A stretch of 64,000 nucleotides of DNA from Saccharopolyspora galaxeae (GTDB taxonomy: Bacteria > Actinomycetota > Actinomycetes > Mycobacteriales > Pseudonocardiaceae): NCBI RefSeq assembly GCF_016526145.1, contig NZ_JADDUE010000003.1:248001-312000 (forward strand). Direction: 5' to 3'. This document shows positions 4,918-49,365 of the stretch, in pieces (position 1 is the stretch's first letter; each line of letters begins with the position of its first letter). A program made the translations under genes and the position numbers. The notes under the pieces are model-generated. The model was not told the DNA's origin, ran no database searches, and worked only from the letters and a program-made list of their open reading frames with translations.

Positions 4918-5592
4918 TCAGGGCGCGGACGGTTCCAGCATCGGCACCAGGAACCGGCGGGCGACGGCGCGGACCTGCTCGTCGTCGTCGATGTCGACGA
5001 GCTCGCTGGGAATGACCAGGAACGACGCCGAGACGCGGACCATCATCTCGGCGACGAGGTCCACGTCGACCGCCGCGGCGACGTGGCCGGCGGCCTGTTC
5101 GTGCCGGAGCTGGCCTGCCAGGAATCGCCGCACGGTGGCCAAGGTCCGGCCGCCGTCGTTGATCATCGAGGGCACCAGCAGGTCCGGCTCGGCCTCCATC
5201 AGGCCGCCGATCAGCGGATTGCCGCGGATGGCGCGCAGCGCGCTGGCGAATCCGAGCTCGACCCGGTCGGCGGCGGTCGCGGCCTGCGCGATGTCGGTGC
5301 GGAACCGGTCGAAGTACCAGCGGAACTCGCGGCGCACCACGTGCTCGACCAGCGCGTCCTTGGTGGTGAACCGGCGGTAGACGGTGATCCTGGAGACCCC
5401 GGCGCGGCGCGCCACGTCCTCCATCGTGGATCGGCGGATGCCCATTCGGCAGAACTGCTCGTACGCGGCGTCGAGCAGGCGCGCAGTGGTCTCGTCGGTG
5501 TCCTCGACGGGGTCGTCGGCCTCGGCGAACGCGCGTTCCAGCAGCGAGTCCGAGTCCTGCGGCGTCATGCAGCCGGACGGTACAGGTTCCAC
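4918..5592 (-). CDS. TetR-family regulator, probable repressor of the lcp genes
   Basis: A 224-residue TetR/AcrR protein. The HTH reads RRSTMEDVARRAGVSRITVYRRF, and the helical C-terminus is divergent, as usual for ligand domains. The GTG start is preferred because GGAAGGA lies four bases upstream; a second candidate is the ATG at 5568. It is divergent from the first lcp gene across a 342-base intergenic region with TGATAC/GTATCA repeats over the lcp promoter. TetR regulators named LcpR sit beside lcp in other rubber-degrading actinomycetes, so a similar job is likely here. This rests on position, not on ligand-domain similarity. Confidence 0.82.
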   Translation of the reverse strand: MEPVPSGCMTPQDSDSLLERAFAEADDPVEDTDETTARLLDAAYEQFCRMGIRRSTMEDVARRAGVSRITVYRRFTTKDALVEHVVRREFRWYFDRFRTDIAQAATAADRVELGFASALRAIRGNPLIGGLMEAEPDLLVPSMINDGGRTLATVRRFLAGQLRHEQAAGHVAAAVDVDLVAEMMVRVSASFLVIPSELVDIDDDEQVRAVARRFLVPMLEPSAP

Positions 5593-5843
5593 GGTGTCCT
5601 TCCTCGGCGCCCGGGAAGGACCCGGTGCCCATGGCTGGTGCCGGAAAGCCCGCGGCCGTTCCGGTCGGGTTCTCGCTACTGGCGGCCTGGCCGCACGGCG
5701 CACGCGGTTCGCGTGGCCTGGAGCCGGTGCAGTGCGAATGCTCTTTCTGGCCCCGCTGCTGTTCGCCGCATCGCAGGTACGGGTGATCTGTCGATTTCCA
5801 GTGCGGACGGAATTCGAAACGGGATCGGTCTCGGGGGCTGGTG

Positions 5844-5903
5844 TTCGGGATCGTCTTGTGCTTCCCTATGATACGCCGATCTGGTTCGTGTATCACCGTA
5901 TCA
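5844..5903 (+). promoter_or_regulatory. Promoter and probable TetR operator of the first lcp gene
   Basis: A -10 TATGAT at 5867-5872 lies 17 bases after a weak -35 (TTCGGG, 5844-5849), predicting a start near 5879. TGATAC at 5869-5874 is inverted relative to GTATCA at 5890-5895, which is repeated at 5898-5903. The repeats overlap the -10 and the transcription start, a repressor-like arrangement that suits the divergent TetR gene. No experiment supports the assignment. Confidence 0.5.
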
Positions 5904-5934
5904 ATCAGCTGTTCCCGGGCTCAAGGATCAGGAC

Positions 5935-7158
5935 ATGAATGAATTCAGCAGACGCAAGGTGTTGGCTTCCGGCGGAGCCCTGGGCGCGTTGGGCGCGCTG
6001 GGCATGGCATCGCCCGCGATGGCGTGGACGTGGTCGCCGAGCGGTTCGATCGCGGGCACCGGGGCGGGCGCCGACCCGAGCTGGGTCTGGGACCAGGAGG
6101 CCGACCCGCTGCTCGCGTCGCTGCTCGATCGGGACGACGTGCCCGAGGTCAACCGCCTGTTGTGGGACTGGACGCGCAACGACCAGGAGCTGCCGCGCGA
6201 GCTCCCGCAGGACCTGCGGGCGTTCATGGAACGGGCGCGCCAGCTGCCGCCATGGGCGGACCAGCGGAAGCTGGAGCTCGCGGCGGAGTTCAACAAGTCC
6301 AGGGGGATCTACCTCAACCTGCTCAACGGGGTCGGCGGCGGCATGTTGAGCACCGCCATCCCGAAGGAAGCCCGCGCGGTCTACTACTCCAAGGGCGGCG
6401 CGGACATGGAGGACCGCGTCGCCAAGACGAGCATCCTGGGATTCGCCGTCGGCGACCCGAACGCCTACCGGCCCGACGGGTCCGTCGTGGTGGAAGCGGT
6501 CAAGACCCGGCTGGTGCACGCGGCCGTGCGGCACCTGCTGCAGCAGTCCCCCGGCTGGAAGCAGACCAGCCGCGGCCAGCGGATCCCGATCAGCCAGGAG
6601 GACATGCTCGTCACCTGGCACACGCTGCCGACCTTCGCGATGCGCCGGATGCTCGACTGGGGCGTGCCGATCACCCGGGCCGAGTCCGACGCGTACCTGC
6701 ACGTCTGGCAGGTGACCGCCTATCTGCTCGGCATCCGCGAGGAGTACATCCCCGCCACCTGGAATGCCGCCTACGCCCAATCCGACCAGGTCCTCGGCCG
6801 GAACATGGGTCCGACGCCGGAAGGCGTCGAGCTGACCGACGTCCTGCTGGGCCAGCTCGCCGAGCAGACCAGCCCGCCGCTCGGGGTCACCCGGCCGCTG
6901 TGCAACGCCCTGGCCAGGTACCTGGTGGGCGATCAGGTCGCCGATTGGGACGCGATCCCGCGGGAGCCGGTCTGGGAACCGCTGATCAACGAGGCGTGGC
7001 CGCTGCTGGTGAAGTTCCGGGAGAACCTCGTTCCGCTGCCCGCGGTGCCCGAAGTCGCCTGGACCATCGACGAAGCCGCGCGCCAGTACATCCTCTTCTA
7101 CCTCACCAAGGGCAAGGAAACGAAGATCGATATCCCCACGATCAACCGTCCCAGGTGA
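5935..7158 (+). CDS. lcp: Latex-clearing protein (Lcp rubber oxygenase), copy 1
   Basis: Lcp proteins are secreted b-type heme dioxygenases that cleave the double bonds of cis-1,4-polyisoprene to oligo-isoprenoids with aldehyde and ketone ends. This copy has 407 residues, the family length, and a Tat signal (SRRKVLASGG, then a hydrophobic stretch ending near SPAMA). Residues matching the Streptomyces K30 active site appear at a constant offset of three: Glu145, Arg161, Lys164, Thr165 and heme-ligand His195 (K30: E148, R164, K167, T168, H198). At the presumed equivalent of the K30 distal Lys83 it has Arg81, where copy 2 has Lys. AGGA sites precede the ATG. The DUF2236 relationship is family knowledge. 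Confidence 0.9.
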   Translation: MNEFSRRKVLASGGALGALGALGMASPAMAWTWSPSGSIAGTGAGADPSWVWDQEADPLLASLLDRDDVPEVNRLLWDWTRNDQELPRELPQDLRAFMERARQLPPWADQRKLELAAEFNKSRGIYLNLLNGVGGGMLSTAIPKEARAVYYSKGGADMEDRVAKTSILGFAVGDPNAYRPDGSVVVEAVKTRLVHAAVRHLLQQSPGWKQTSRGQRIPISQEDMLVTWHTLPTFAMRRMLDWGVPITRAESDAYLHVWQVTAYLLGIREEYIPATWNAAYAQSDQVLGRNMGPTPEGVELTDVLLGQLAEQTSPPLGVTRPLCNALARYLVGDQVADWDAIPREPVWEPLINEAWPLLVKFRENLVPLPAVPEVAWTIDEAARQYILFYLTKGKETKIDIPTINRPR

Positions 7159-7327
7159 GCGCGTAGGTCCGTTCGAGCGCGCCGCAGCGGGCCCTTCCGG
7201 CGATTCGCCGGACCTTTTCGCCCGCACGACGCCGTGCGCACTGGTCATTCCGCTGGTTCTCGCGCGATGAGGACCTTCGATTTCCGCAAATTTCGCAATC
7301 CGTGGAACTCAAGGAGGAGTTCAGGAA

Positions 7328-8548
7328 ATGAGCGAACTCAGCAGGCGCAAATTATTGGCTTCCGGTGGTGCCTTGGGCGCGCTCGGCGCACTGGGCATGG
7401 CCAGCCCCGCGGCGGCGTGGACGTGGTCGCCGAGCGGTTCGGTCGTGGGCACCGGCACCGGTGCCGACCCGAGGTGGGTCTGGGACGAGGTGGCCGACCC
7501 GCTGGTCGGCTCGCTGCTCGACCGCGGTGCAGTGCCCCGGGTCAACGAGCTGCTGGCGCAGTGGACCAAGAACGGCCAGGAGCTGCCGAAGGGGCTTCCC
7601 GCCGAGCTGCGCGACTTCATCGAGAACGCCCGGCAGCGCCCGGAGTGGGTCGACGACCGCAAGCTCGACCTCGCGTACCAGTTCAACGAGAAGCGCGGGC
7701 TCTACCTCGGCGTCCTGTACGGGATGGCCAGCGGCATGATGAGCACGGTCATCCCGAAGGAGGCGCGGGCGGTCTACCACTCCTACGGCGGGGCCAACAT
7801 GAAGGACCGCATCACCAAGACCGCCAAGCTCGGATACGACATCGGCACCCCGAACGCCTACGCCGACGACGGCGAGATGATCGTCACCTGCGTCAAGACC
7901 CGGCTCACCCACGCCGGCGTGCGCAACCTGCTGCCGAAGTCGCCGCACTGGAGCCAGGTCGCGCCCGAGGACATCCCGATCAGCCAAGCGGACATGATGG
8001 TCACCTGGCACAGCCTGGCCACGACGGTCAACCGGAAGATGGTCGAGTGGCAGGTGCCGATCCCGGTCGAGGAGTCCGAGGCGTACCTGCACTCGTGGCA
8101 GATGTGCGCGCACATGCTCGGCATCGACGACGAGTACATCCCGGCTTCCTGGGACGAGGCGAACTCGCAGGCCGATCAGGTGCTCACGCCGGTGCTGGCG
8201 CCGACGGCCGAAGGTGTCAACCTGGCCGACATCCTGATGGACTTCGGCAAGGAGATCGACGGCACCATCCTGAGCAGGCCGGTCATCGGCGCGCTGACCC
8301 GGTTCATGCTCGGCGATCAGGTCGCCGAGTGGCTGATGATCCCGCCGGAGCCGGTCTGGGACCCGTTGCTGAAAACGTTCTGGGGCCCGTTCATCGCCGT
8401 CCGCGAAGGCCTGCTCGACGTCTTCCCCGGCACCGACCAGGTCTACTGGGCGTTCGACGAGATCATCCGGCAGGCGGTGCTGCTGTTCCTGTCCAAAGGG
8501 GACTACCCGATCAGCATCTCGATCCCCACCGGAAACCGGCCTTCCTGA
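7328..8548 (+). CDS. lcp: Latex-clearing protein (Lcp rubber oxygenase), copy 2
   Basis: A 406-residue paralogue of copy 1, alike along the whole length and clearly a tandem duplication that has since diverged. It keeps the Tat signal SRRKLLASGG and the active-site set Glu145, Arg161, Lys164, Thr165, His195. It also has Lys81 in WTKNGQELP, the likely distal heme ligand of the closed form in K30 Lcp. A strong AAGGAGGA ribosome site precedes the ATG. The 169-base gap from copy 1 holds no obvious hairpin, so read-through is possible. Two Lcp enzymes with different distal residues may differ in polymer access or product length; that is inference. Confidence 0.9.
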   Translation: MSELSRRKLLASGGALGALGALGMASPAAAWTWSPSGSVVGTGTGADPRWVWDEVADPLVGSLLDRGAVPRVNELLAQWTKNGQELPKGLPAELRDFIENARQRPEWVDDRKLDLAYQFNEKRGLYLGVLYGMASGMMSTVIPKEARAVYHSYGGANMKDRITKTAKLGYDIGTPNAYADDGEMIVTCVKTRLTHAGVRNLLPKSPHWSQVAPEDIPISQADMMVTWHSLATTVNRKMVEWQVPIPVEESEAYLHSWQMCAHMLGIDDEYIPASWDEANSQADQVLTPVLAPTAEGVNLADILMDFGKEIDGTILSRPVIGALTRFMLGDQVAEWLMIPPEPVWDPLLKTFWGPFIAVREGLLDVFPGTDQVYWAFDEIIRQAVLLFLSKGDYPISISIPTGNRPS

Positions 8549-8701
8549 GTCCACAACGGACGACTCGCGCGATCGCAGGTCGCAGCGGGAGGAGAGCGGA
8601 ACCGACAGCGGCGAGATCGATGCCGATGGACCGCAACCCGGCATCGATCGTCGTCGCGGTGCGACGCCTGCGAGCTGCCTCGCCGGCGAAGGGAGTCCCC
8701 G

Positions 8702-11005
8702 ATGAGCAACGATCTTCCGCCCGAGCCGGAGCCCGGCGGGCACGTCGTCGGCAGGCGGCGGTTCCTCGGATACCTGCTGGCGGCGCCGACGCTGGTCGCG
8801 GCCGCCGAACTCGGCGGCGCCGGCACCGCCGACGCGCAGCTGCCGTCACCGGCGCTCGCGGAGATCTTCGACGCGAACGACCTGATGACCGTGGCGGCGG
8901 CGCCGACCTCGCACCTGATCACGGTCGAGGTCGGCGAGGACGGCACGGTCTCGTTCGCGCTGCCGCGGGCGGAAGTCGGCCAGGGCATCACCACTTCGAC
9001 GAGCATGCTGATCGCCGAAGAGCTGCGCGTGCCGGTCGAGCGGGTTCGCGTCACGCTCGCCGATGCCCGCCCTGAGCTGGTGTTCAACCAGCTCACCGGC
9101 GGTTCCAACACGACAATCGCGACCTATCGGCCGATCCGGGTCGCCGCCGCGCTGGCCCGCGAGCGGCTGCTGGCGGTCGCGGCGGCCGAATTCGGTGCCG
9201 CAGCGCAAGATCTGACGTTGCGCGACGGAATGATCACGGCCGCCTCGGGCGCCGCCGCGGACATCGGCGCCTTCGCGGAAAAGGCCGCGAGCACCCGGGA
9301 CCGGCAGGTCGCGGTCGAACTCGGCCCGCGCGAGCAGCACACCGTCATCGGCACCCCGCACAACCGCGTCGACGGGCTCGCGGCTGTGACCGGGCGCAAG
9401 AAGTTCGCCATGGACCTCGACGTCCCGGGGGCCATGCCCGCGATGGTCTGCCGGCCGCCCACGATCAACGGGTCGGTCGCGGCCGCGTCCAACCTGGCCG
9501 AAGTCCGCAACATGCCCGGAGTGACCGATGTCGCGGTCATCTCCACCGGAGTCGCGGTGCGGGCGGAGACCTTCGGGCAGTGCATCGACGCCGTGCGCGC
9601 GCTCGAAGTGGCCTGGAAACCCGGTACCGCGGAAGGGAAATCCGACGACAGCGTGCTGGCGGAGCTGCGAGCCGCCGAGGCACCGCTCGGCCCACCACCG
9701 CTGGCGTCCACAGTGGAGGCGGAATTCACGTTCCAGTTCCGCAGCAACAGCGCGCTGGAACCGAACTGCGCGGTCGCCGACGTGCGCCGGGACCGGGCCG
9801 AGATCTGGTCCTGCCTGAAATCCCCGATCGTGGCCCAGCAGACCATCGCCGCCGACCTCGGCCTGCCCGTCGGCGCGGTGCGGGTGCACGTCACCGAGGG
9901 CGGCGGCTCCTTCGGGCGCAAGCTGTTCTTCGACGCCGCGCGGGAGGCCGCCGAGACCTCCCGGGCGGTGGGCAAACCGGTCAAGCTGATGTGGCACCGC
10001 GCCGACGACTCCCGGCAGGGCCGCACCCACCCGATGGCGATCTCTCGGGTGCGCCTGGCCCACTCCGGGCGCAGCGTGCTCGGGTACGAGCAGCGGCACA
10101 CCAGCGTTTCGACCGACTGGAGCCACGGGTTGGGCGAGATCATCACCGCGATGGTGGGCAAGCTTCCGGTCGGAGACATCGGCTTTTCCGAAACGATGTT
10201 CCAGCTCAGCGTCTCGATGCCCTACGAGTTCGGGGCGAGCAGCCAGTTGCTGTGCGAGACCGACAAGGGCTTCAACACCGGCAGCATGCGCAACGTCTAC
10301 TCACCGGACGTCACCTGCGCCCGCGAGCTCGTCGTCGACCGGCTCGCGGCGAAACTGGGCGAAGATCCTTACCGGTTCCGGCACGACTTCGTCCAGGACG
10401 ACCGTTCCCGCGCGGTGCTGGCCAAGGCCGCCGAACTCGGGGACTGGGGTCGGCCGATGCCCGCGGGCACCGCGCAGGGGATCGCCTTCCACGCCGAGTA
10501 CCGCGGGGTCACCGCGGCGCTGGTGGAGATCGATTGCCGTCCCGGCACCGTCGACCGGCCGATCCGCGACGGCGTGGCCGGACCGCGCGTCACCCGGGTC
10601 GTCTTCGCCGTCGACGCGGGCCTGGTGATCAATCCGCGCGGGCTCGAGGCGCAGATGATGGGCGGCATCATGGACGGCATCGCGCTGGCGCTGACTTCCA
10701 GCCTGCACCTGCGCGATGGCCACTTCCTCGAAGCCAGCTGGGACAACTACTTCTACACCCGGCAGTGGAACGTGCCGTTCGACCTGCACGTCGAGATCAT
10801 GCCGGACACCACCGGAGAACCGGGCGGGGCGGGCGAACTCGGCGTGGCAGCGGCGATGTCCGCGGTCGCCTGCGCCTACGGCCGCGCCACCGGCACGCAG
10901 CCCACCCGCTTCCCGATCAACCACGACACGCTTTCGTTCACCCCCAAACCCGCGGTGCCACCCGTTCCCGAGTCGCCGACGGACGGGCTGGAGCACGCAC
11001 GCTGA
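8702..11005 (+). CDS. Molybdopterin subunit of an exported aldehyde oxidoreductase (OxiB-like)
   Basis: A 767-residue xanthine-oxidase-family large subunit of the isoquinoline-oxidoreductase beta type. A Tat-like signal (GRRRFLGYLLAAPTLVAAA) opens the protein. Molybdenum-cofactor segments include GQGITTSTSMLIAEEL, GGSFGRKLF and GSMRNVYSPD, and the catalytic glutamate lies in GEPGGAGELGVAAA near residue 710. In Streptomyces K30 the lcp gene is followed by oxiB and oxiA, whose products oxidise the aldehydes released from rubber; the same order is seen here. There is no FAD subunit gene. The GGGAG site fits the ATG. The oxiA-like gene follows after nine bases. Confidence 0.88.
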   Translation: MSNDLPPEPEPGGHVVGRRRFLGYLLAAPTLVAAAELGGAGTADAQLPSPALAEIFDANDLMTVAAAPTSHLITVEVGEDGTVSFALPRAEVGQGITTSTSMLIAEELRVPVERVRVTLADARPELVFNQLTGGSNTTIATYRPIRVAAALARERLLAVAAAEFGAAAQDLTLRDGMITAASGAAADIGAFAEKAASTRDRQVAVELGPREQHTVIGTPHNRVDGLAAVTGRKKFAMDLDVPGAMPAMVCRPPTINGSVAAASNLAEVRNMPGVTDVAVISTGVAVRAETFGQCIDAVRALEVAWKPGTAEGKSDDSVLAELRAAEAPLGPPPLASTVEAEFTFQFRSNSALEPNCAVADVRRDRAEIWSCLKSPIVAQQTIAADLGLPVGAVRVHVTEGGGSFGRKLFFDAAREAAETSRAVGKPVKLMWHRADDSRQGRTHPMAISRVRLAHSGRSVLGYEQRHTSVSTDWSHGLGEIITAMVGKLPVGDIGFSETMFQLSVSMPYEFGASSQLLCETDKGFNTGSMRNVYSPDVTCARELVVDRLAAKLGEDPYRFRHDFVQDDRSRAVLAKAAELGDWGRPMPAGTAQGIAFHAEYRGVTAALVEIDCRPGTVDRPIRDGVAGPRVTRVVFAVDAGLVINPRGLEAQMMGGIMDGIALALTSSLHLRDGHFLEASWDNYFYTRQWNVPFDLHVEIMPDTTGEPGGAGELGVAAAMSAVACAYGRATGTQPTRFPINHDTLSFTPKPAVPPVPESPTDGLEHAR

Positions 11006-11014
11006 GGAGCGTCC

Positions 11015-11491
11015 TTGCCTGAACACACTTTTCGCCTCAACGGCGAGCAGGTCACCGTCACCACCGCAGATGACGTGCGGTTGCTCTGGGTACTGCGCGA
11101 TCTGCTCGGCGTGCACGGGCCGAAGTACGGCTGCGGCATCAACGTCTGCAAGGCGTGCACGAGCCACGTCAACGGCAAGGCCGTGAACCCCTGCGCGATC
11201 CCCGTCGGCGAGCTCTCGCCCACCGACGAGGTCACCACCATCGAAGGACTTCCGGCCACAGTGGACGCCGAGTTGCACCCGATGCAGGAAGCCTGGCTGG
11301 AGCAGGACGTCGTGCAGTGCGGCTACTGCCAGCCCGGCCAGATCATGGCCGCCGTGGCCCTGGTGCGCCGGGTCGCCGCGGAGGGCCGTGAGATCACCGA
11401 CTCGGACATCGACGGCATCCGCAACATCTGCCGCTGCGGCACCTACTTCCGGATCCGGCAGGCGATCAGAGCGGGTGCCAGCGAGATGTGA
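11015..11491 (+). CDS. [2Fe-2S] subunit of the aldehyde oxidoreductase (OxiA-like)
   Basis: A 158-residue two-cluster ferredoxin-type subunit. The N-terminal plant-type cluster is CGINVCKAC plus a later Cys (NPCAIP), and the second is CGYCQPGQ with CRCGTY. It passes electrons from the molybdenum subunit to an acceptor. The TTG start has GAGGAG overlapping the stop of the upstream gene, so the two are translationally linked. It has no signal peptide of its own and would be exported with the Tat-bearing large subunit, as known for this family. It ends the rubber cluster; a hairpin at 11525-11542 follows. Confidence 0.9.
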   Translation: MPEHTFRLNGEQVTVTTADDVRLLWVLRDLLGVHGPKYGCGINVCKACTSHVNGKAVNPCAIPVGELSPTDEVTTIEGLPATVDAELHPMQEAWLEQDVVQCGYCQPGQIMAAVALVRRVAAEGREITDSDIDGIRNICRCGTYFRIRQAIRAGASEM

Positions 11492-35266: not shown

Positions 35267-38200
35267 ATGACGAGCGCGGAACCCTTTCCGAATCGGCCGA
35301 TCCGGGAACTTCTGGGCCGCGTTCCCGGATATTCGTTCGCCGGGGACGGCGTGCACACCGCGGTGGGCAACCACACCCGCACCGCGCTCGACCTGCCGAT
35401 GCCGAGTCCGCTGCCGAGCTGGGCGAGGACCTACAACTCGCGCGGACCCGGCTCCGGCCGGCTCGGACGCGGTTGGACGTCCACAATGGACGCAAGGCTG
35501 GATTTCGAGTCGTCCGAAGGAATCGTGCTGCACCACTCGGACGGTCGCGCGCTGACCTTCCCGCACCGTCCGGACGGCACCCACGGGCGCGCGACCGACC
35601 TGCCCGCCGAGCTGCGCGAGCAGGCCGAGTCCTGGCAACTGCACTTCTTCAGCGGCGAGGTCTGGGAGTTCGACGCCGCCGGGCGGATGCGTTCTCGCGC
35701 CGCCCGCGGGCAACGAGTGGACTGCGAATATGATTCGGCCGGGCTGCTGATCTCCGCGGTGCACTCGGCCGGATTCCGGTTGGAGTTGTCCTACGGCGCG
35801 GGCGGCCTGCTGCGCCGGATCGTCGCCGACGACGGCCGCGCGGTGCATTACGAGTACGGGACCGCGGGCGTCGCGGACGCAGCATCGCCGGACATCCCGG
35901 TGTTGAGCTCGGCCACCACCCCCGGCACCGGCGCGACGAGGTACGACAGCACTCCGGCCGGGCTGCTCGCGCGGGTCACCGACGCCGACGGCGTGGTGCT
36001 GGTGCGCAACGACTTCGCGGACGTGGCCTCGGGAGACCCCGCCGACGGCCGAGTGGTGCAGCAGGTTCTCGCGGGCGAGGTCGAAGTCCGCTTCTCCTAC
36101 GACGACGCGAACCGCACGACCGCGGTGCACGGCCCGACCGGGGCCCGGACCGAGTTCGGCCACGCCCCGGACGGCCGCCCCGTGCGTGTCACCGATGCGC
36201 TCGGAGGCACGACTTCGCTGCGCCGCGACGAGGACGGCCGACTCGTCGAGGGCAGCACCGCGGGCGGCACCGCGTTCGCACAGCACTACGACGAAGCGGG
36301 CGACCTGGTCACCGAAACGTTCGGGGACGCCACCACGAGCTGGACCCACGACGAGGCACACCGGATCACGAGCGTCACCGACCCGGCAGGCCTGCGCACC
36401 CTGTTCACCTACCACGGCGACGAGCGGATCCCTGCCACGATCAGCGACCCGTCCGGCGGCATCACGCACCAGGTCGTGCAGGACGGGAAAGTCCTCCGCA
36501 CGCGGCGCCCCGCCGGCGGGATCTGGTGGTACGAGCACGACGACCGCGGCAACCTCGTCACCGCCACCGCACCGGACGGCGCGAACACCCGCTACGAGCA
36601 CGATGCGGCAGGCAGGCGCGTCGCCGAGACGAACGCCCTCGGTGAGCGGATCGAGTACCGGTACGACGACGCCGGACGGCTGGTCGGCACCACCGGCCGG
36701 GACGGCATCGTGCGGCAGCGGCGGTATTCCGCGGCGGGCAGGCTGCTGAGCACGAGCGATCAGGAAGGCACGCGCAGCAGTCGCGAGTACGACGCGGCGG
36801 GCCGGTTGGCCACGACCACCGGCCCGCTCGGCACGAGCACCCGCTACGGCTACGACCGGGCGGGAAACCTCGCAACGGTCACCGGACCCGCCGGTGAGCA
36901 GGTCACGCTCGCGCACGACGAGCTGAACCGGATCACCGCCGTGACCGACGCGGTGGGCGCCACCACCCGCTACGAGTACGACGCCGAGGGCAACAACACC
37001 AGCGTCAGCTCACCGGCGGGCACGATGCGCAAGGAGTTCGACCAGCGCGGCAACGCGGTCGTGGAAACCGACCCCGGCGGAGCCGTCACCACCGTCGACT
37101 ACGACGCGCTGGACCGTCCCGTCGCCGTGACGGACCCGGCCGGAGCGACCTGGCGCACGCAGTACGACGACACCGCCGGGGTCGTCACCGAGACCGGCCC
37201 GGACGGCGCGGTCGCGATGCGGCGCCACGGCCCGGACGGGCGGACTTCGGTGCGCATCGATCCGCTGGGCAGGCGCACCGAATACCACTACGACGACAAC
37301 GGCCGGATCACCGCGATCACCGATCCGGAGGGCGGGCGGACCCGGTTCGAGCACGACGCCGCGGGACGGACGACGGCGGTGCGCACCCCGGCCGGCCTGG
37401 TCACCCGCTTCCGGTACGAACACGGGCGGCTCGCCGCCGTGGTGGACCCGCGCGGCTGGATCACCCGGTACCGCTACGACTCGCGGGGCAGGCGCACCGA
37501 AGTGATCAACCCGAGCGGGATGCGCACCCGGTTCGGTTACGACGCCGCCGGGCGCCTGGTGAGCCGCACCGACGCACGCGGCGGCACCACCCGCCACCAC
37601 TACGACGAACTCGGCAACCTCACCGAGCTCGTCGACGCGAAAGGGGTCAGCACCCGGTTCACCCACGACGCCGCGGGCAGGCGGACATCGGTGACCGACC
37701 CGCTCGGGCGCACCACCCGCCGCGAGTACGACGCGGCGGGGAACCTGGCCACGCTGATCGAACCTTCGGGGCTGCGGCAGCACTTCGAGTACGACGCACG
37801 CGGCAACCTGCTGCGCCGCCACGGCGAAGACGGCGCCGAAGTGCGCTACACCTACGACGCGGCGGGCCGCCGCAAGAGCATGTCCGACAGCACCGGAACG
37901 ACCGGCTACGACTACGACACGGCCGGACGGTTGCGCACCGTCACGTTCCCGGACGAAGGCCGCCTGGTCGCCGATTACGACGCAGCGGGCCAGCGCACCA
38001 CCTTGCACTATCCGGATGGTGCGGCGGCGCACTACCGCTACGACGGCAACGGCAGACTCGTCGGCCTGCGCGACTCCGACGCCGGAGAAGCCGTCTACGC
38101 CGTGGACCCGGACGGGCGGCTGGTGACCGAGCAGCTGCCCGGCGGCTGGTCGCGGCGCTACCGCTACGAAGGCGGGCTGCTGGCGGAGTTCGCCGAGAAC

Positions 38201-39979
38201 CGGGCGAACGTACCGGCGATCCGCACCGAACTTTCGCACGACGCCGACGGGCGGATCACCGGCCAGGTCGATCACGTCGGCGCGGACGCCACCGGTGCGG
38301 AAGAGGTGCTGCGGCACGCCTTCGGCTACGACCCGGGCGGCCAGCTGGTCTCGATCAGCTCGCGCACGGCGGACGGTTCCGCGGACACCCGCATCGCCTA
38401 CGACATCGCGGGGAACAGGACCGCGGTGGTCCGCGAGGGTGCGCGGACCGGTTACCTCTACGACGCGGCGGATCAGCTCGTCGCCGTCGAGCAGGAAGGC
38501 AGGCGGATCGCCTACCGCTACGATCCGGCAGGCCGGTTGCTCGAACAGCACGACGGCGACCGCCGACAGGTCATCGACTACGACGGCCTCGGCCTCCCGC
38601 GGGTATCGACGCGCACCACCGCGTGGTCGTCGGAGCGAACCGAGCTGCGCTACAACGGCGACGGCCTGCTCACCGAGCTGGAGTCGCGCATCGGCGACGA
38701 CGCGGCGCCGACCTCGGTCGACTACCGCTGGAGCGTGGGAGACCGGCTGCCGCAGATCCTTGATCAACGGGTCCGGACGGATGCCCGGCAGGACGACTCC
38801 TCACCGGTCGGCGGACGGCTGGCCGGCGCCCGATTCACCTATGGCCAAGGCCGGGCTTTCGCCACCACCGCGCAGAATTCGGTCGTGTTCGCCCGGGACG
38901 CCTTCGGCTCCACCGTCCGCACCGAGCAGACCCGGCCGTGGGCGCAGGCCGAGCGCTACGGGGCGTTCGGGGCGCTCGAGGCCGAACCGGACCGCGCGCC
39001 GCTGTCCGCCCCGGAGATTCCCAGGTTCGGCTACCGCGGCGAACTGTCGCTGGCCTCCGACGTCTACCTGCGCGCCCGCTTCCTCGACGGCGCGGTGGGC
39101 CGGTTCCACGCCCCGGACCCGGTCGCGCTGATCGGGGCGAGCAGCCAGGCCAACAACCGCTACCAGTACGCGGAAAACGATCCGTTGAACCGCACCGACC
39201 CGACCGGGGCGTGGGCGGTCGCCGACGCGCGCGGCGGGCTGCTGGCGCAACTTGCCGCCACGGGCATCGGAGGATGCGGCAACTGCTCGGGCGATCCGGG
39301 CAACGGTTTGGAACGGCACTGGAAGTGCTTCCAAGACCAGGCTTGTTTCCGCGTCCGCGGCTACCGGTTGACCGAGGACGCGCTCGACGCGGATCCGGAC
39401 ACGCTCAAGGACCTCTACTACAGCCGCAGGCCCGAGCGCGCAGCCCAGGCTTTGACGATCAACAAGCTCAACGCGGAACGGGCCGGCGGGTGGGATTCGT
39501 TCTGGGGCGGCGTGTTGGACTACACGCCGGTCAGCGAGCGGGTCGACTGGGAAGTCGGCCCGCGCGGGACGAACCGGTTCCGCGTCGACATCACCACCGA
39601 GGAACGCGACATCTTCGAGGTCAAACGCTGGGCGGGGCCGGCCACCGCGGTGGAGGTGACCGGGCAGCTGAACGGCTACGTGCTCAGCGCGGGCTACTGG
39701 GGCGTCGATTTCGAGCCCAGCGACGAGCTGACCGAGTGGGCCTCCGGCTTCGACGTGACCACCGGGTTCTTCTCGTACTTCGAGACGCCGTGGACCAATG
39801 ACACCGTTTTCGTGTGGGGCCTGGGCAATCCGGACGGGCACATCTACTTCGCCGAGAACGACCGGGCGAGCGACGACGTGCAGTCGAAGGCCTACAGCGA
39901 AGGCGGGCCGCTGACCGAGCTGCCCGAACCCGTCATCCCGATCCCGATCCGTCCTGTTCCGGTGCCGGTCGTGCCGTGA
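35267..39979 (+). CDS. RHS/YD-repeat polymorphic toxin with a probable nuclease tip
   Basis: A 1570-residue protein. Residues 25-75 (GDGVHTAVGNHTRTALDLP...WARTYNSRG) form a DUF6531-like RHS entry. About 1100 residues of YD repeats follow (GxxxxxxYDxxGRL units). The RHS core runs to FLDGAVGRFHAPDP...NRYQYAENDPLNRTDPTGAW near residue 1313. The last 257 residues are a separate tip with CGNC and two more Cys. It carries RFRVDI near 1440, IFEVKRW near 1450 and VTGQLNGYV after that, the D...ExK...Q pattern of PD-(D/E)XK nucleases. There is no signal peptide, PAAR or WXG region. The shell would enclose and release the tip. Confidence 0.85.
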   Translation: MTSAEPFPNRPIRELLGRVPGYSFAGDGVHTAVGNHTRTALDLPMPSPLPSWARTYNSRGPGSGRLGRGWTSTMDARLDFESSEGIVLHHSDGRALTFPHRPDGTHGRATDLPAELREQAESWQLHFFSGEVWEFDAAGRMRSRAARGQRVDCEYDSAGLLISAVHSAGFRLELSYGAGGLLRRIVADDGRAVHYEYGTAGVADAASPDIPVLSSATTPGTGATRYDSTPAGLLARVTDADGVVLVRNDFADVASGDPADGRVVQQVLAGEVEVRFSYDDANRTTAVHGPTGARTEFGHAPDGRPVRVTDALGGTTSLRRDEDGRLVEGSTAGGTAFAQHYDEAGDLVTETFGDATTSWTHDEAHRITSVTDPAGLRTLFTYHGDERIPATISDPSGGITHQVVQDGKVLRTRRPAGGIWWYEHDDRGNLVTATAPDGANTRYEHDAAGRRVAETNALGERIEYRYDDAGRLVGTTGRDGIVRQRRYSAAGRLLSTSDQEGTRSSREYDAAGRLATTTGPLGTSTRYGYDRAGNLATVTGPAGEQVTLAHDELNRITAVTDAVGATTRYEYDAEGNNTSVSSPAGTMRKEFDQRGNAVVETDPGGAVTTVDYDALDRPVAVTDPAGATWRTQYDDTAGVVTETGPDGAVAMRRHGPDGRTSVRIDPLGRRTEYHYDDNGRITAITDPEGGRTRFEHDAAGRTTAVRTPAGLVTRFRYEHGRLAAVVDPRGWITRYRYDSRGRRTEVINPSGMRTRFGYDAAGRLVSRTDARGGTTRHHYDELGNLTELVDAKGVSTRFTHDAAGRRTSVTDPLGRTTRREYDAAGNLATLIEPSGLRQHFEYDARGNLLRRHGEDGAEVRYTYDAAGRRKSMSDSTGTTGYDYDTAGRLRTVTFPDEGRLVADYDAAGQRTTLHYPDGAAAHYRYDGNGRLVGLRDSDAGEAVYAVDPDGRLVTEQLPGGWSRRYRYEGGLLAEFAENRANVPAIRTELSHDADGRITGQVDHVGADATGAEEVLRHAFGYDPGGQLVSISSRTADGSADTRIAYDIAGNRTAVVREGARTGYLYDAADQLVAVEQEGRRIAYRYDPAGRLLEQHDGDRRQVIDYDGLGLPRVSTRTTAWSSERTELRYNGDGLLTELESRIGDDAAPTSVDYRWSVGDRLPQILDQRVRTDARQDDSSPVGGRLAGARFTYGQGRAFATTAQNSVVFARDAFGSTVRTEQTRPWAQAERYGAFGALEAEPDRAPLSAPEIPRFGYRGELSLASDVYLRARFLDGAVGRFHAPDPVALIGASSQANNRYQYAENDPLNRTDPTGAWAVADARGGLLAQLAATGIGGCGNCSGDPGNGLERHWKCFQDQACFRVRGYRLTEDALDADPDTLKDLYYSRRPERAAQALTINKLNAERAGGWDSFWGGVLDYTPVSERVDWEVGPRGTNRFRVDITTEERDIFEVKRWAGPATAVEVTGQLNGYVLSAGYWGVDFEPSDELTEWASGFDVTTGFFSYFETPWTNDTVFVWGLGNPDGHIYFAENDRASDDVQSKAYSEGGPLTELPEPVIPIPIRPVPVPVVP

Positions 39980-45775: not shown

Positions 45776-48478
45776 TTACCGGGTCGCGCCGGAGAGCACG
45801 TTGGGCATGGCTTCGGCGTCGTCTCGCAGTTCGGTCATCGAGCCGATCCCGGGCAGAATGTCGCGCACGTCCGCCAGGCCGGTCGTTCCTGCCAGCACCG
45901 TGGGACGGGAACCGGTCAGCAACTCCCGGATCTCCAGGCGCGCCGCGGGGTCGGAGACCCGGTCGGTGCGGTCCAGCACCAGCACGGCGGGATCCTCGGC
46001 GAGCGCGCTGCGCACCGACTCCGCACCGCCTTCGCCGACGTCGACGTAGGCGACCCGCGAGCGCACCGACGATGCACGGGCGGGCAGCACGTAGCCGAGG
46101 ACCTTCAACCTGCCGCCGTCGGCCTTCAACCGGCCGGACAGCGTCAGCAGCAACGCGCTGATCGCGGACTCGTGCGTGCCGCGCACGACGTGGATTCCCT
46201 GGCGCGGCAACAGGAAACCGACGTCCTGGTAGATCGGGTCACCGCCGGACGGGTCGGCCATCCGCAGCCCTTCGCAGGCGATCGCCTCGTCGGAGCCGGG
46301 GCTGGGCCAGTCGGCCAGCTCGATCTCCTCGCGCAGGTTCTCGCCTTCCACGTCGAACGAGGGCAGCACCCGGTCCAGCTTGCGCGGCATCCACCACGCC
46401 CGGTCGCCCAGCAGCGCCAGCACCGCGGGCACCAGCGTCATGCGCACGATGAACGCGTCGACGAACACGCCGACGGCGAGCCCGAGCGCGATCGGCTTCA
46501 GGTTCGCATCGCCCTCCGGCACGAACGCGATGAACACCGCGAACATGATCACCGCGGCGGCGGTGACGACCTTCGCCGAGGAAACGAATCCTCTGTGGAC
46601 GGACCCGCGCGCGTCGCGGGTGTGCACGAATTCCTCGCGCATTCGGGTGACCAGGAAGACCTCGTAGTCCATGGCCAGCCCGAACAGCACGCCCATCAGC
46701 ACGATCGGCATGAAGCTGATCACCGGTCCGGCACGGGTGACGCCGAAGAATTCGGCCAGCCAGCCGTGCTGGAACACCAGCGCGACGATGCCCAGCGAGG
46801 ACCCGATGCTGAGCAAGTATCCCAGCGTCGCCTTGATCGGCACCGCGATGGAGCGGAACACCATCGTCAGCAGGATCAGCGACAGCCCGACCACGACCAC
46901 GGCAAACGGCAGCAGCGCCTCACCGAGCTTGGCCGAGACGTCGATGCCGACCGCGGTGAACCCGGTGACCGAGAGGTTCACCCCGTAGGTCTCCTGGAAG
47001 TGCGGCCGCAGCGAGCGGAGCTCGTCGACGAGCTGCTTGGTCTGCTCGGAATCCGGCGCGCCTTCCGGGACCACCTGCACGATGCCGGTGTCGGCGGTCG
47101 GGTTCGGGGTGGCCATCGGCACGTCGGCCACGCCGGGCAGCCGCTCGATCTCGCCCTTGAGGTCGTTCATCAGCCCGAGCGGGTCGTTGCTGGTGACGAT
47201 GTTGCCGGTGACGATCAGCGGGCCGTTGAAGCCCTTCGGGAAGTGTTCGGCGATTCGCTCGTAGGTGACCCGGGCCGGGTCTTCCTTCGGCAGCGCCCCG
47301 GAGTCGGGCAGTGCCAGCCGCAGCCCGGCCGCTGGCAACGTGGCCATCCCGAGCGCCCCGATCACGAGCACCACGGTGACGATCGGGAAGCGGGTCACCG
47401 CGCGCACCCAGCCGCTGAAGAACCGCTCGCCGAACGGGCGCTTGGCGCGCTTTTTCGGTTCCCGCGCCTTGATCCGGTTGCGCGCGAAGCCCAGCAGCGC
47501 GGGCATCAGCGTCACCGACACCAGCACCGCGATGCCGACGCCGACCGCGGCCGCGATGCCCATCGTGGTCAGGAACGGGATGCCCGCCACGCCGAGCCCG
47601 ACCAGCGCGATCATCACGGTGAGCCCGGCGAAGATGACCGCCGAACCCGCGGTGGCCGTGGAGCGCGCCGCGGCTTCCTGCGGCGATACGCCCTCGGCCA
47701 GTTCTTGCTGGTGTCTGGACACGATGAACAGCGCGTAGTCAATGCCCACGGCCAGGCCGAGCATCAGCGACAGCAGCGGGGTGGTCGCGTTGATCGTCCA
47801 AATCGCCGTGGCCAGGAAGATCAGCGCGGTGGAGATCCCCACCCCTAGCAGTGCGTTGATCAGCGGCATCCCTGCCGCCAGGAACGAGCCGAGGGTGATC
47901 ACGAGCACCACGATCGCGATCACCAGGCCGAGCGCTTCGACGATGCTCAGGCCCGGGATCTCGGTGGAGAACAACGGACCGCCGTGCGAGGCCTGCGCAC
48001 CTTCCGGCAGCCGGTCCTGCAGGTCGGCGGCGATCTGGGCGATGCGGTCCTTGGTGGGCTGCCCGATCGATTGGGTCTGGCCTTCGAGCTGGGCCATGAT
48101 GATGCCGGCTTGGCCGTCGTCGCTGATCGAACCGCCCAGGTCCTCCTGGTACGGCGAGATCACCGAGGCGACGCCGTCCATGTTCTCGAGTTCGCGGACG
48201 GTCTTGTCGATCTCGGCGTGCACGGCCGGATCGCGCACGCCTTGCGGCGCGACCGTGAGGACCTGCGCCGAGGCGCCGCTGGTCTGCGGGAAAGTCACCG
48301 ACAGCCGCTCGAGGGCGTTCTGCGCCTCGGTGCCCGGGATGCTGACGTTGTTGTCCAGGCCCTGGTTCATCAGGCCCGCACCGCCTCCCGCGATGGCCAG
48401 CACCAGCAGCCAGATCAGCAGGACGGTCTTGCGGGCGGCGAATGCTCGGCGACCGACTGAGTAGAGGAACGACGACAC
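45776..48478 (-). CDS. MMPL/RND-family exporter with a degenerate C-terminal ABC-like domain
   Basis: A 900-residue transporter. Two MMPL halves, each with one helix, a large external loop and five helices (for example MLGLAVGIDYALFIVSRHQQEL and MGVLFGLAMDYEVFLVTRMREEF with the conserved Asp-Tyr pairs), fill residues 1-720. The last 165 residues resemble an ABC nucleotide-binding domain: GIHVVRGTHESAISALLLTLSGRL stands where Walker A should be, but GKS/T is missing. DPAVLVLDRTD stands where Walker B should be, without the catalytic Glu. It is probably a non-hydrolysing regulatory module. The start is GTG with GGGAG. A twin operator lies upstream. Confidence 0.9.
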   Translation of the reverse strand: MSSFLYSVGRRAFAARKTVLLIWLLVLAIAGGGAGLMNQGLDNNVSIPGTEAQNALERLSVTFPQTSGASAQVLTVAPQGVRDPAVHAEIDKTVRELENMDGVASVISPYQEDLGGSISDDGQAGIIMAQLEGQTQSIGQPTKDRIAQIAADLQDRLPEGAQASHGGPLFSTEIPGLSIVEALGLVIAIVVLVITLGSFLAAGMPLINALLGVGISTALIFLATAIWTINATTPLLSLMLGLAVGIDYALFIVSRHQQELAEGVSPQEAAARSTATAGSAVIFAGLTVMIALVGLGVAGIPFLTTMGIAAAVGVGIAVLVSVTLMPALLGFARNRIKAREPKKRAKRPFGERFFSGWVRAVTRFPIVTVVLVIGALGMATLPAAGLRLALPDSGALPKEDPARVTYERIAEHFPKGFNGPLIVTGNIVTSNDPLGLMNDLKGEIERLPGVADVPMATPNPTADTGIVQVVPEGAPDSEQTKQLVDELRSLRPHFQETYGVNLSVTGFTAVGIDVSAKLGEALLPFAVVVVGLSLILLTMVFRSIAVPIKATLGYLLSIGSSLGIVALVFQHGWLAEFFGVTRAGPVISFMPIVLMGVLFGLAMDYEVFLVTRMREEFVHTRDARGSVHRGFVSSAKVVTAAAVIMFAVFIAFVPEGDANLKPIALGLAVGVFVDAFIVRMTLVPAVLALLGDRAWWMPRKLDRVLPSFDVEGENLREEIELADWPSPGSDEAIACEGLRMADPSGGDPIYQDVGFLLPRQGIHVVRGTHESAISALLLTLSGRLKADGGRLKVLGYVLPARASSVRSRVAYVDVGEGGAESVRSALAEDPAVLVLDRTDRVSDPAARLEIRELLTGSRPTVLAGTTGLADVRDILPGIGSMTELRDDAEAMPNVLSGATR

Positions 48479-48539
48479 GCCAGACTCCCTGTCACCGGAC
48501 GTACCGGACGGGTCTATGCCACTAACGGACGAAGGACAC

Positions 48540-48581
48540 GGATACGGCGCTGTATCCGATACAGCAGCGTATCCGATACCA
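48540..48581. promoter_or_regulatory. Twin TetR operators between the MMPL and TetR genes
   Basis: GCTGTATC-C-GATACAGC (48549-48565) is a perfect 17-base palindrome. GTATC-C-GATAC (48569-48579) repeats its core 17 bases away, and GGATAC at 48540 pairs with GTATCC at 48552. The overlapping array sits 60-100 bases before each divergent gene and is the natural site of the TetR protein encoded at 48679. Confidence 0.75.
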
Positions 48582-48678
48582 TCGACCGTCCCCACCCGGG
48601 TGCAAGTCCAAGGTCGAAACTGCTGGTATAGATCCCGGTCCTGGGTCATCCTGGTCCGGCGTCGAGGAGGAAGTCCGC

Positions 48679-49365
48679 GTGAACACGAGCAAGGCCGCCG
48701 GGGCGCCGGAAGGCGGCGCACGGGAGACCGCGCGCCGGGCCAAGACGCGGGAACGGCTCATCGACGCCGCCTACCGGCAGTTCTGCGAGCACGGCATCAA
48801 CGGCACCTCCATCGAGGCCATCTGCGACGACGCCGGGTTCACCCGCGGCGCGTTCTACTCCAACTTCGCCAGCAAGGAGGAGCTGTTCTTCGCACTGGCC
48901 GACCGGGAGAACCGGATGCGGCTGGAGACGCTGCGCGAACGGTTCGACGACGCGGTCGCCGCGCTCGGCGGAACCGGCGGCAAGCCCGATCCGGCGCGGA
49001 TCGAAGGGGTGATCGCCGACATCCTGGCGGTGCAGCCGGAGAACCGGCAGTGGTCGCTGCTCAACAGCGAATTCCGGCTGCTGGCGATGCGCGATCCGCA
49101 GGTCGCGCCGCGCTTCCTGGAGAGTTCGCAGGCGTTCCAGCACGAGCTGGCGTCGATAGTCGACGCCGCGCTCGGCTCGGTGGGGCTGCGCTTCCTGATC
49201 GATCCGCTGCACCTGACCCGGCTGCTGCTGGACCAGTTCGAGTCCGCGATGCAGGAGGCGATCCTCTCCGGTGCGCAGGACGCCGAGAAGGCCGCGCGGG
49301 ACACCATCATGCAGACGCTGCCGCCGTTGATTCACAGCCTCACCGAGGTGCGTCCGGCGGATTGA
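48679..49365 (+). CDS. TetR-family regulator of the MMPL-YhgE operon
   Basis: A 228-residue TetR/AcrR protein; HTH GTSIEAICDDAGFTRGAFYSNFASKEELFFAL. The C-terminal domain is helical and of the BetI/AcrR-like sort. The GTG start follows GAGGAGG. It is divergent from the MMPL exporter operon across a 200-base region with a perfect palindromic operator, the classical layout of an efflux pump and its local repressor. Confidence 0.9.
   Translation: MNTSKAAGAPEGGARETARRAKTRERLIDAAYRQFCEHGINGTSIEAICDDAGFTRGAFYSNFASKEELFFALADRENRMRLETLRERFDDAVAALGGTGGKPDPARIEGVIADILAVQPENRQWSLLNSEFRLLAMRDPQVAPRFLESSQAFQHELASIVDAALGSVGLRFLIDPLHLTRLLLDQFESAMQEAILSGAQDAEKAARDTIMQTLPPLIHSLTEVRPAD

Follow-up and report, generated by a model that had tools for sequence, protein, structure and literature searches.

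Operons in which two tandem genes for latex clearing proteins (Lcp, rubber oxygenases) precede oxiB and oxiA, the genes for the two subunits of an aldehyde oxidoreductase, have been published for Actinoplanes OR16 (PMC7413915), Dactylosporangium AC04546 (PMC11169899) and Streptomyces CFMR 7 (PMC9108482, PMC11169899; published strains are described here and below from excerpts of the cited papers). In OR16, lcp1-lcp2-oxiB-oxiA apparently form one transcript, the adjacent TetR-family regulator binds the lcp1 promoter, and oxygen uptake on latex was shown for the purified Lcps, the activity of Lcp1 being about sevenfold that of Lcp2 (PMC7413915). When applied to rubber as crude extracts, each of the three Lcps of AC04546 releases Schiff-positive aldehydes, and Lcp2 and Lcp3 of this strain match OR16 Lcp1 and Lcp2 at 80.1% and 76.4%, respectively (PMC11169899). 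Saccharopolyspora erythraea given the lcp gene of Streptomyces sp. K30 formed clear zones (PMC3426405), so that export and maturation of an Lcp are possible in a bacterium with this genus name. Here we describe an operon of the same type in Saccharopolyspora galaxeae (GCF_016526145.1), in a stretch of 64,000 nucleotides (contig NZ_JADDUE010000003.1, positions 248,001 to 312,000), the whole of which is referred to as the window.

The locus (window positions 4918-11491; Table 1) consists of a TetR gene on the minus strand followed by lcp, lcp, oxiB and oxiA on the plus strand, as judged from reading frames and Pfam domains. An earlier note, made from the sequence alone, had described it as a rubber-degradation locus with a divergent TetR; all five genes are indeed in place, with the expected Pfam families TetR_N, MPAB_Lcp_cat (twice), MoCoBD_1/MoCoBD_2 and Fer2/Fer2_2 in gene order. 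We consider it highly probable that this is a rubber-degrading operon with two exported Lcps, an OxiBA oxidoreductase and a TetR switch. Two b-haem Lcp dioxygenases from different paralogue clades (A for the first gene, B for the second), exported by the twin-arginine translocation (Tat) pathway, would cleave polyisoprene to oligomers terminated by aldehyde and keto groups; OxiBA, exported via the Tat signal of OxiB with OxiA riding along, would oxidise the aldehyde ends to acids, which could then be taken up and channelled into beta-oxidation; and the divergent TetR would bind an element between its own gene and the first lcp, keeping the operon repressed as long as no ligand derived from rubber causes its release. 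For orthologues, the literature reports Lcp activity, joint transcription, induction by rubber and binding of a regulator, and by analogy the same may be expected here. The finding is correct but ordinary: a published type of operon with a small variant of gene order and a useful operator prediction.

Both Lcp proteins match MPAB_Lcp_cat (DUF2236) well above the Pfam cut-off of 23 bits, with 53.9 and 65.5 bits. A search against solved structures (E-value threshold 0.001) identifies solely the two entries for Lcp K30 (5o1l and 5o1m); for 5o1l, the E-values are 5.9e-165 and 9.6e-146 for the clade-A and clade-B proteins, respectively. In alignments that cover nearly the full length, the two proteins are 61% and 57% identical to Lcp K30 and 58% identical to each other. 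The earlier claim that the catalytic residues of the K30 enzyme recur at one constant offset is borne out for the five residues Glu148, Arg164, Lys167, Thr168 and His198, the roles of which in K30 have been demonstrated by mutation (PMC5522427, PMC6311187): both window proteins contain E145, R161, K164, T165 and H195, i.e., an offset of -3. Across 159 aligned Lcp rows, a set in which some genes appear twice under different handles, Glu148 and Thr168 never vary, and Arg164, Lys167 and His198 are each retained in 158, the exceptions being X at 164, Glu at 167 and X at 198. Both proteins also carry the Tat signals attributed to them before, namely an SRRKxL motif and an AxA site ahead of residue 31, read by eye; the published cleavage of the OR16 Lcp1 signal is between residues 30 and 31 (PMC7413915). 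No third lcp was detected in the genome at an E-value of 1e-60; besides the two window Lcps, the genome encodes four further proteins matching MPAB_Lcp_cat.

For comparison of loci, a scan of named genome contigs yielded 101 relatives, of which the best 80, representing 78 distinct loci, were retained; this is a sample of close kin and not an estimate of prevalence. A FastTree phylogeny was built from 158 Lcp rows of these named loci, the window, K30 and 24 further loci, including a 351-residue row from L050 and leaving aside a 315-residue row from L102; the set was drawn by Lcp queries, with distant MpaB proteins outside it. In this tree, the second window gene and 68 others form clade B, a clean split with support of 94, and the first window gene belongs to clade A, with support of 90 and a split that is clean except for one row (L072). 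The K30 protein belongs to neither clade. The tree proposed in the earlier note as a check supports that note's reading of both window proteins as Lcps: they group with the tandem Lcps of AC04546, and both align closely with Lcp K30. Quick IQ-TREE trees were also built for each clade. A recent duplication of lcp was ruled out because the copies are 58% identical and fall into two clades, each of which spans many genera; tandem pairs of this kind are two separate paralogues retained side by side and not a fresh duplicate. The first 50 codons of the pair encode 84% identical residues vs 54% over the remainder. Gene conversion of this segment was considered and dropped, given that other two-lcp loci show 50-88% identity there; the high N-terminal identity probably reflects mostly the shared signal and the first mature residues.

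The earlier note took two consecutive lcp genes to be less usual than one. This is true in a weak sense, yet the arrangement is known from at least three published strains, and two lcp genes less than 500 bp apart on one strand are found in 34 of the 78 named loci. The order TetR-B-A-oxiB-oxiA is present in 23 of the 78. In a sample of 200 genomes of the family, which includes the own species, 54 have matches at an E-value of 1e-60; two Lcp matches lie less than 200 bp apart in 19 genomes and about 3-4 kb apart in 4 more (counted by eye). The 19 family tandem pairs comprise 12 with the order B-A, 4 with the order A-B, and 3 in which A is followed by a K30-like gene (G026, G032 and G116).

One close published counterpart is AC04546 (L039), where tandem clade-B and clade-A Lcps also precede oxiB-oxiA; its orthologues are 83% (clade A) and 73% (clade B) identical to those in the window. 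This strain differs from the window in the order TetR-B-A on the contig, in the presence of two TetR genes nearby and in a third lcp far away. In L039, the clade-B product has 402 amino acids and the signal end that is given in print for AC04546 lcp2 (AWT-WA), and the signal end of the clade-A product is the one given for lcp3 (AWS-WS; PMC11169899); because the signal ends match, lcp2 is assigned here to clade B and lcp3 to clade A, a probable correspondence with two discrepancies: the clade-A frame has 399 amino acids vs 407 in print, and the gene order given in the paper is lcp3, lcp2, oxiB-oxiA. OR16 resembles the window in gene content, the divergent TetR, the Tat signals and two tandem lcp genes ahead of oxiB-oxiA; unlike the window, it possesses a third, separately located lcp that has a regulator of its own, and the leading gene of its pair maps to clade B and not, as here, to clade A. 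Since clade B maps via AC04546 Lcp2 to OR16 Lcp1, the more active enzyme, the second window Lcp is predicted by analogy to be the stronger of the two. K30 is similar to the window in Lcp sequence and residues and in having oxiBA beside lcp; unlike the window, it has a single lcp.

The separation of clades A and B and their persistent adjacency in many genera, together with the roughly sevenfold difference in OR16, are what would be expected if labour were divided, with clade B as the main cutter of rubber and clade A acting on shorter oligomers, different polyisoprenoids or polymers of another kind. However, natural rubber is a substrate of every tandem Lcp tested from OR16 and AC04546, and seven K30 positions are the same in both clades over the 159 rows, save for three single exceptions. 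Such a division of labour is a possibility that we regard as doubtful.

An orthologue of the window TetR, 68-84% identical, is encoded divergently within 600 bp of lcp in 67 of the 78 named loci, so that the divergent regulator pointed out earlier is confirmed in position and is a conserved neighbour of lcp; the searches for homologues used a form starting at ATG 5568 (216 amino acids). With the long form starting at GTG 5703 as the query, 23 of 92 alignments to relatives and to the query itself begin exactly at residue 38, i.e., GTG 5592, 6 begin at residue 46, i.e., ATG 5568, and only one, presumably the window protein itself, begins at residue 1. Thus, given these alignment starts and the sequence AGGAAGG just ahead of it, GTG 5592 is the likely start (224 amino acids); GTG 5703 is disfavoured by the alignment starts of the relatives, and ATG 5568 was given up when the long-form alignments favoured 5592. 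A second TetR homologue is encoded near the lcp pair in L032 and L039.

The element between the TetR and lcp genes, TGATACGCCGATCTGGTTCGTGTATCACCGTATCA, to which the earlier note did not refer, contains the core GTWTSWNNGTAYC. Removal of identical sequences reduced 89 TetR-lcp intergenic regions to 82 distinct ones; the core is found in 72 of these vs 3 of 4100 letter-shuffled ones. In these 72 regions, TGATAC, which was outside the search pattern, starts 21 bases ahead of the core and is 90-100% conserved per base. At up to 3 mismatches, the genome has a single site for the full 35-bp pattern, just before the lcp operon; a wider regulon was considered and rejected, since no further operator-like site turned up at this threshold. 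Given the recurrence of the core and the single genomic site, the element is likely to be the operator of the TetR protein, and repression and its relief by an inducer would follow the scheme outlined above. The palindrome printed for OR16 has only its right-hand GTATCA part in common with the element (compared by eye). The 35-bp consensus was not met in the literature passages searched, a set to which the primary papers on LcpR VH2 and LcpRB A3(2) are external, and is not claimed to be unpublished. In L044, the intergenic region contains a second partial operator-like repeat, seen by eye.

The earlier description of a molybdenum/[2Fe-2S] pair downstream of lcp holds, with separate molybdenum-cofactor and [2Fe-2S] subunits encoded directly after the lcp genes. 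The nearest solved structure for both is the aldehyde dehydrogenase 8gy3, whose large subunit is matched by OxiB (E-value 5.3e-30) and small subunit by OxiA (E-value 1.8e-37), a result that fits an aldehyde-to-acid step. OxiB starts with a Tat-like RRRFLGYL sequence and has a GELG motif near its end, the glutamate of which presumably has a role in the enzyme. If rubber-derived aldehydes are its substrates, the five genes would make the complete polymer-to-acid module envisaged in the earlier note; in the excerpts of the literature considered here, no measurement of OxiBA on rubber cleavage products is reported.

Several observations weigh against the proposed function of the operon. With respect to regulation, 11 of the 78 named loci have no divergent TetR within 600 bp, and 10 of the 82 intergenic regions miss the strict core, although near-matches are visible by eye in three of these (L030, L042 and L068) and another, from L102, is a remnant of 34 bases. 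No rubber-degrading activity is known for the strain, and its Lcps are only predicted to bind b-haem and to cleave polyisoprene. The operon holds no cytochrome, flavin or electron-acceptor subunit. With respect to OxiBA, five of the six genomes examined from the genus (the own genome among them) encode relatives of OxiB with 62-63% identity, and one of these five is devoid of any lcp match. Furthermore, oxiB stands beside the pair in only 12 of the 19 family tandem loci, and lcp pairs without it amount to 7 of these 19 (none or fragments, within the few kb fetched) and 3 of the 34 named tandem loci, the two sets overlapping in part. The OxiBA-like genes without lcp and the family loci without oxiB bear also on the alternative that OxiBA is a general aldehyde oxidoreductase that landed in the operon by chance and does not act on rubber aldehydes, as does a second OxiB/OxiA-like pair in the same genome (G000:C28:217695-219962; L105:12160-14996), about 33 kb from the module and adjoining a PucR-type regulator, in which OxiB is 63% identical to the window protein. 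This alternative appears unlikely, considering that the lcp pair is directly followed by oxiB and oxiA in all but 3 of the 34 named tandem loci (31 of 34) and that OR16 transcribes these genes together with lcp.

The window differs from most related loci in gene order: clade A comes first and clade B second, whereas the common order is B-A. The A-B order was seen only in the species of the window and two other Saccharopolyspora genomes, L023 and L024, the only such cases among the 78 named loci; among the 19 family tandem pairs, it is found in the own genome, another genome of the same species, and G005 and G173, which are the records of L023 and L024. Saccharopolyspora sp. NFXS83 (L023) has the same five genes in the same order, 80-90% identical, and differs from the window in that its HrpB gene is on another contig. 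In Saccharopolyspora indica (L024, L108), both lcp genes are retained and oxiB is matched only by short fragments, and Saccharopolyspora endophytica (L056) has the common B-A order. Among six genomes of the genus, the module is intact in three (own, same species and NFXS83), another has TetR and clade B, one (L102) contains a truncated remnant, and one has nothing. In the remnant (L102:5960-7697), a TetR gene, a clade-A lcp and oxiA, all of them truncated, lie side by side; the 15-kb stretch of L102 yields no match to oxiB or to a clade-B lcp. The HrpB gene adjoins the module in the window, is more than 1 Mb from it in two other lcp-bearing genomes and is on a different contig in a third (a draft assembly). 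Given this patchy presence and the differing position relative to HrpB, the rubber module is accessory within the genus and has no fixed place.

Such patchiness, with intact modules in three of six genomes, two of them of one species, and the fragmented oxiB of S. indica could also mean that the locus is a relic or a recent import that the strain does not use. This is very unlikely, in view of five intact frames that are 99-100% preserved in the second genome of the species and an operator-like element that is likewise intact. In a quick clade-A tree of 35 rows, the window gene is separated from most Pseudonocardiaceae and placed beside Streptomyces (SH-aLRT 83). With a larger set, a constraint that kept it together with seven further rows of Pseudonocardiaceae passed the test (p-AU 0.253), and one that joined it to eight rows with A first, from Streptomyces and other taxa, was rejected (p 0.018). 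On these results, import of the clade-A gene from another lineage was set aside as an explanation of the reversed order. Both constrained groups were named after the first tree had been seen. The TetR and OxiB trees are mostly unresolved. Within the favoured rubber-operon reading, we tentatively entertain, as one possible history among others, that the Saccharopolyspora version is a re-assembled operon, in which an old two-clade pair was reversed in order and placed under a one-site regulator, in a module that was gained, moved and eroded within one genus; the weaker clade-A enzyme would now be first in the transcript and clade B second, with a changed ratio of doses.

The features of the locus are listed in Table 1. 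The third-position GC content of the five frames is 0.90-0.94, as for real genes, in a window with 71% GC; none of the five proteins matched an NCBIfam model above the cut-off.

Table 1. Features of the lcp locus in the window
Feature	Position	Strand	Remarks
TetR-family regulator, putative LcpR type	4918..5592	-	TetR_N, E-value 4.6e-14; divergent from the lcp operon
35-bp operator-like element, TGATAC-N15-GTATCA-N2-GTATCA	5869..5903	strandless	in the TetR-lcp intergenic region
lcp of clade A, encoding a 407-aa latex clearing protein (rubber oxygenase)	5935..7158	+	
Putative Tat signal of the clade-A Lcp, SRRKVL ... AMA/W (slash, cleavage site)	5935..6024	+	read by eye
lcp of clade B, encoding a 406-aa latex clearing protein (rubber oxygenase)	7328..8548	+	
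Putative Tat signal of the clade-B Lcp, SRRKLL ... AAA/W	7328..7417	+	read by eye
oxiB, molybdopterin subunit of aldehyde oxidoreductase	8702..11005	+	MoCoBD_1 and MoCoBD_2
oxiA, [2Fe-2S] subunit, 158 aa, TTG start	11015..11491	+	Fer2_2, E-value 2.1e-24; Fer2, E-value 1.7e-5

Elsewhere in the window, positions 35267-39979 encode a 1570-aa RHS-repeat protein with a DUF6531 domain, which coincides with the strongest AT skew of the window (0.308 at 36001-38000). An MMPL-family transporter gene on the minus strand adjoins a TetR gene on the plus strand at 45776-49365, and a 503-aa frame at 51578-53089 matches a condensation domain of the nonribosomal peptide synthetase type (its neighbours were scanned in part).

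The tandem layout was already known; the present analysis adds the division of the pair between two clades, the A-B variant of the order, the 35-bp element and the patchy distribution of the module in the genus. With this locus, the known cases are joined by a well-defined candidate degrader of rubber near Saccharopolyspora, the genus name under which a foreign Lcp has been shown to function, and the shared 35-bp element is a testable predicted operator across many actinomycetes that may serve as a handle for finding inducible lcp operons.

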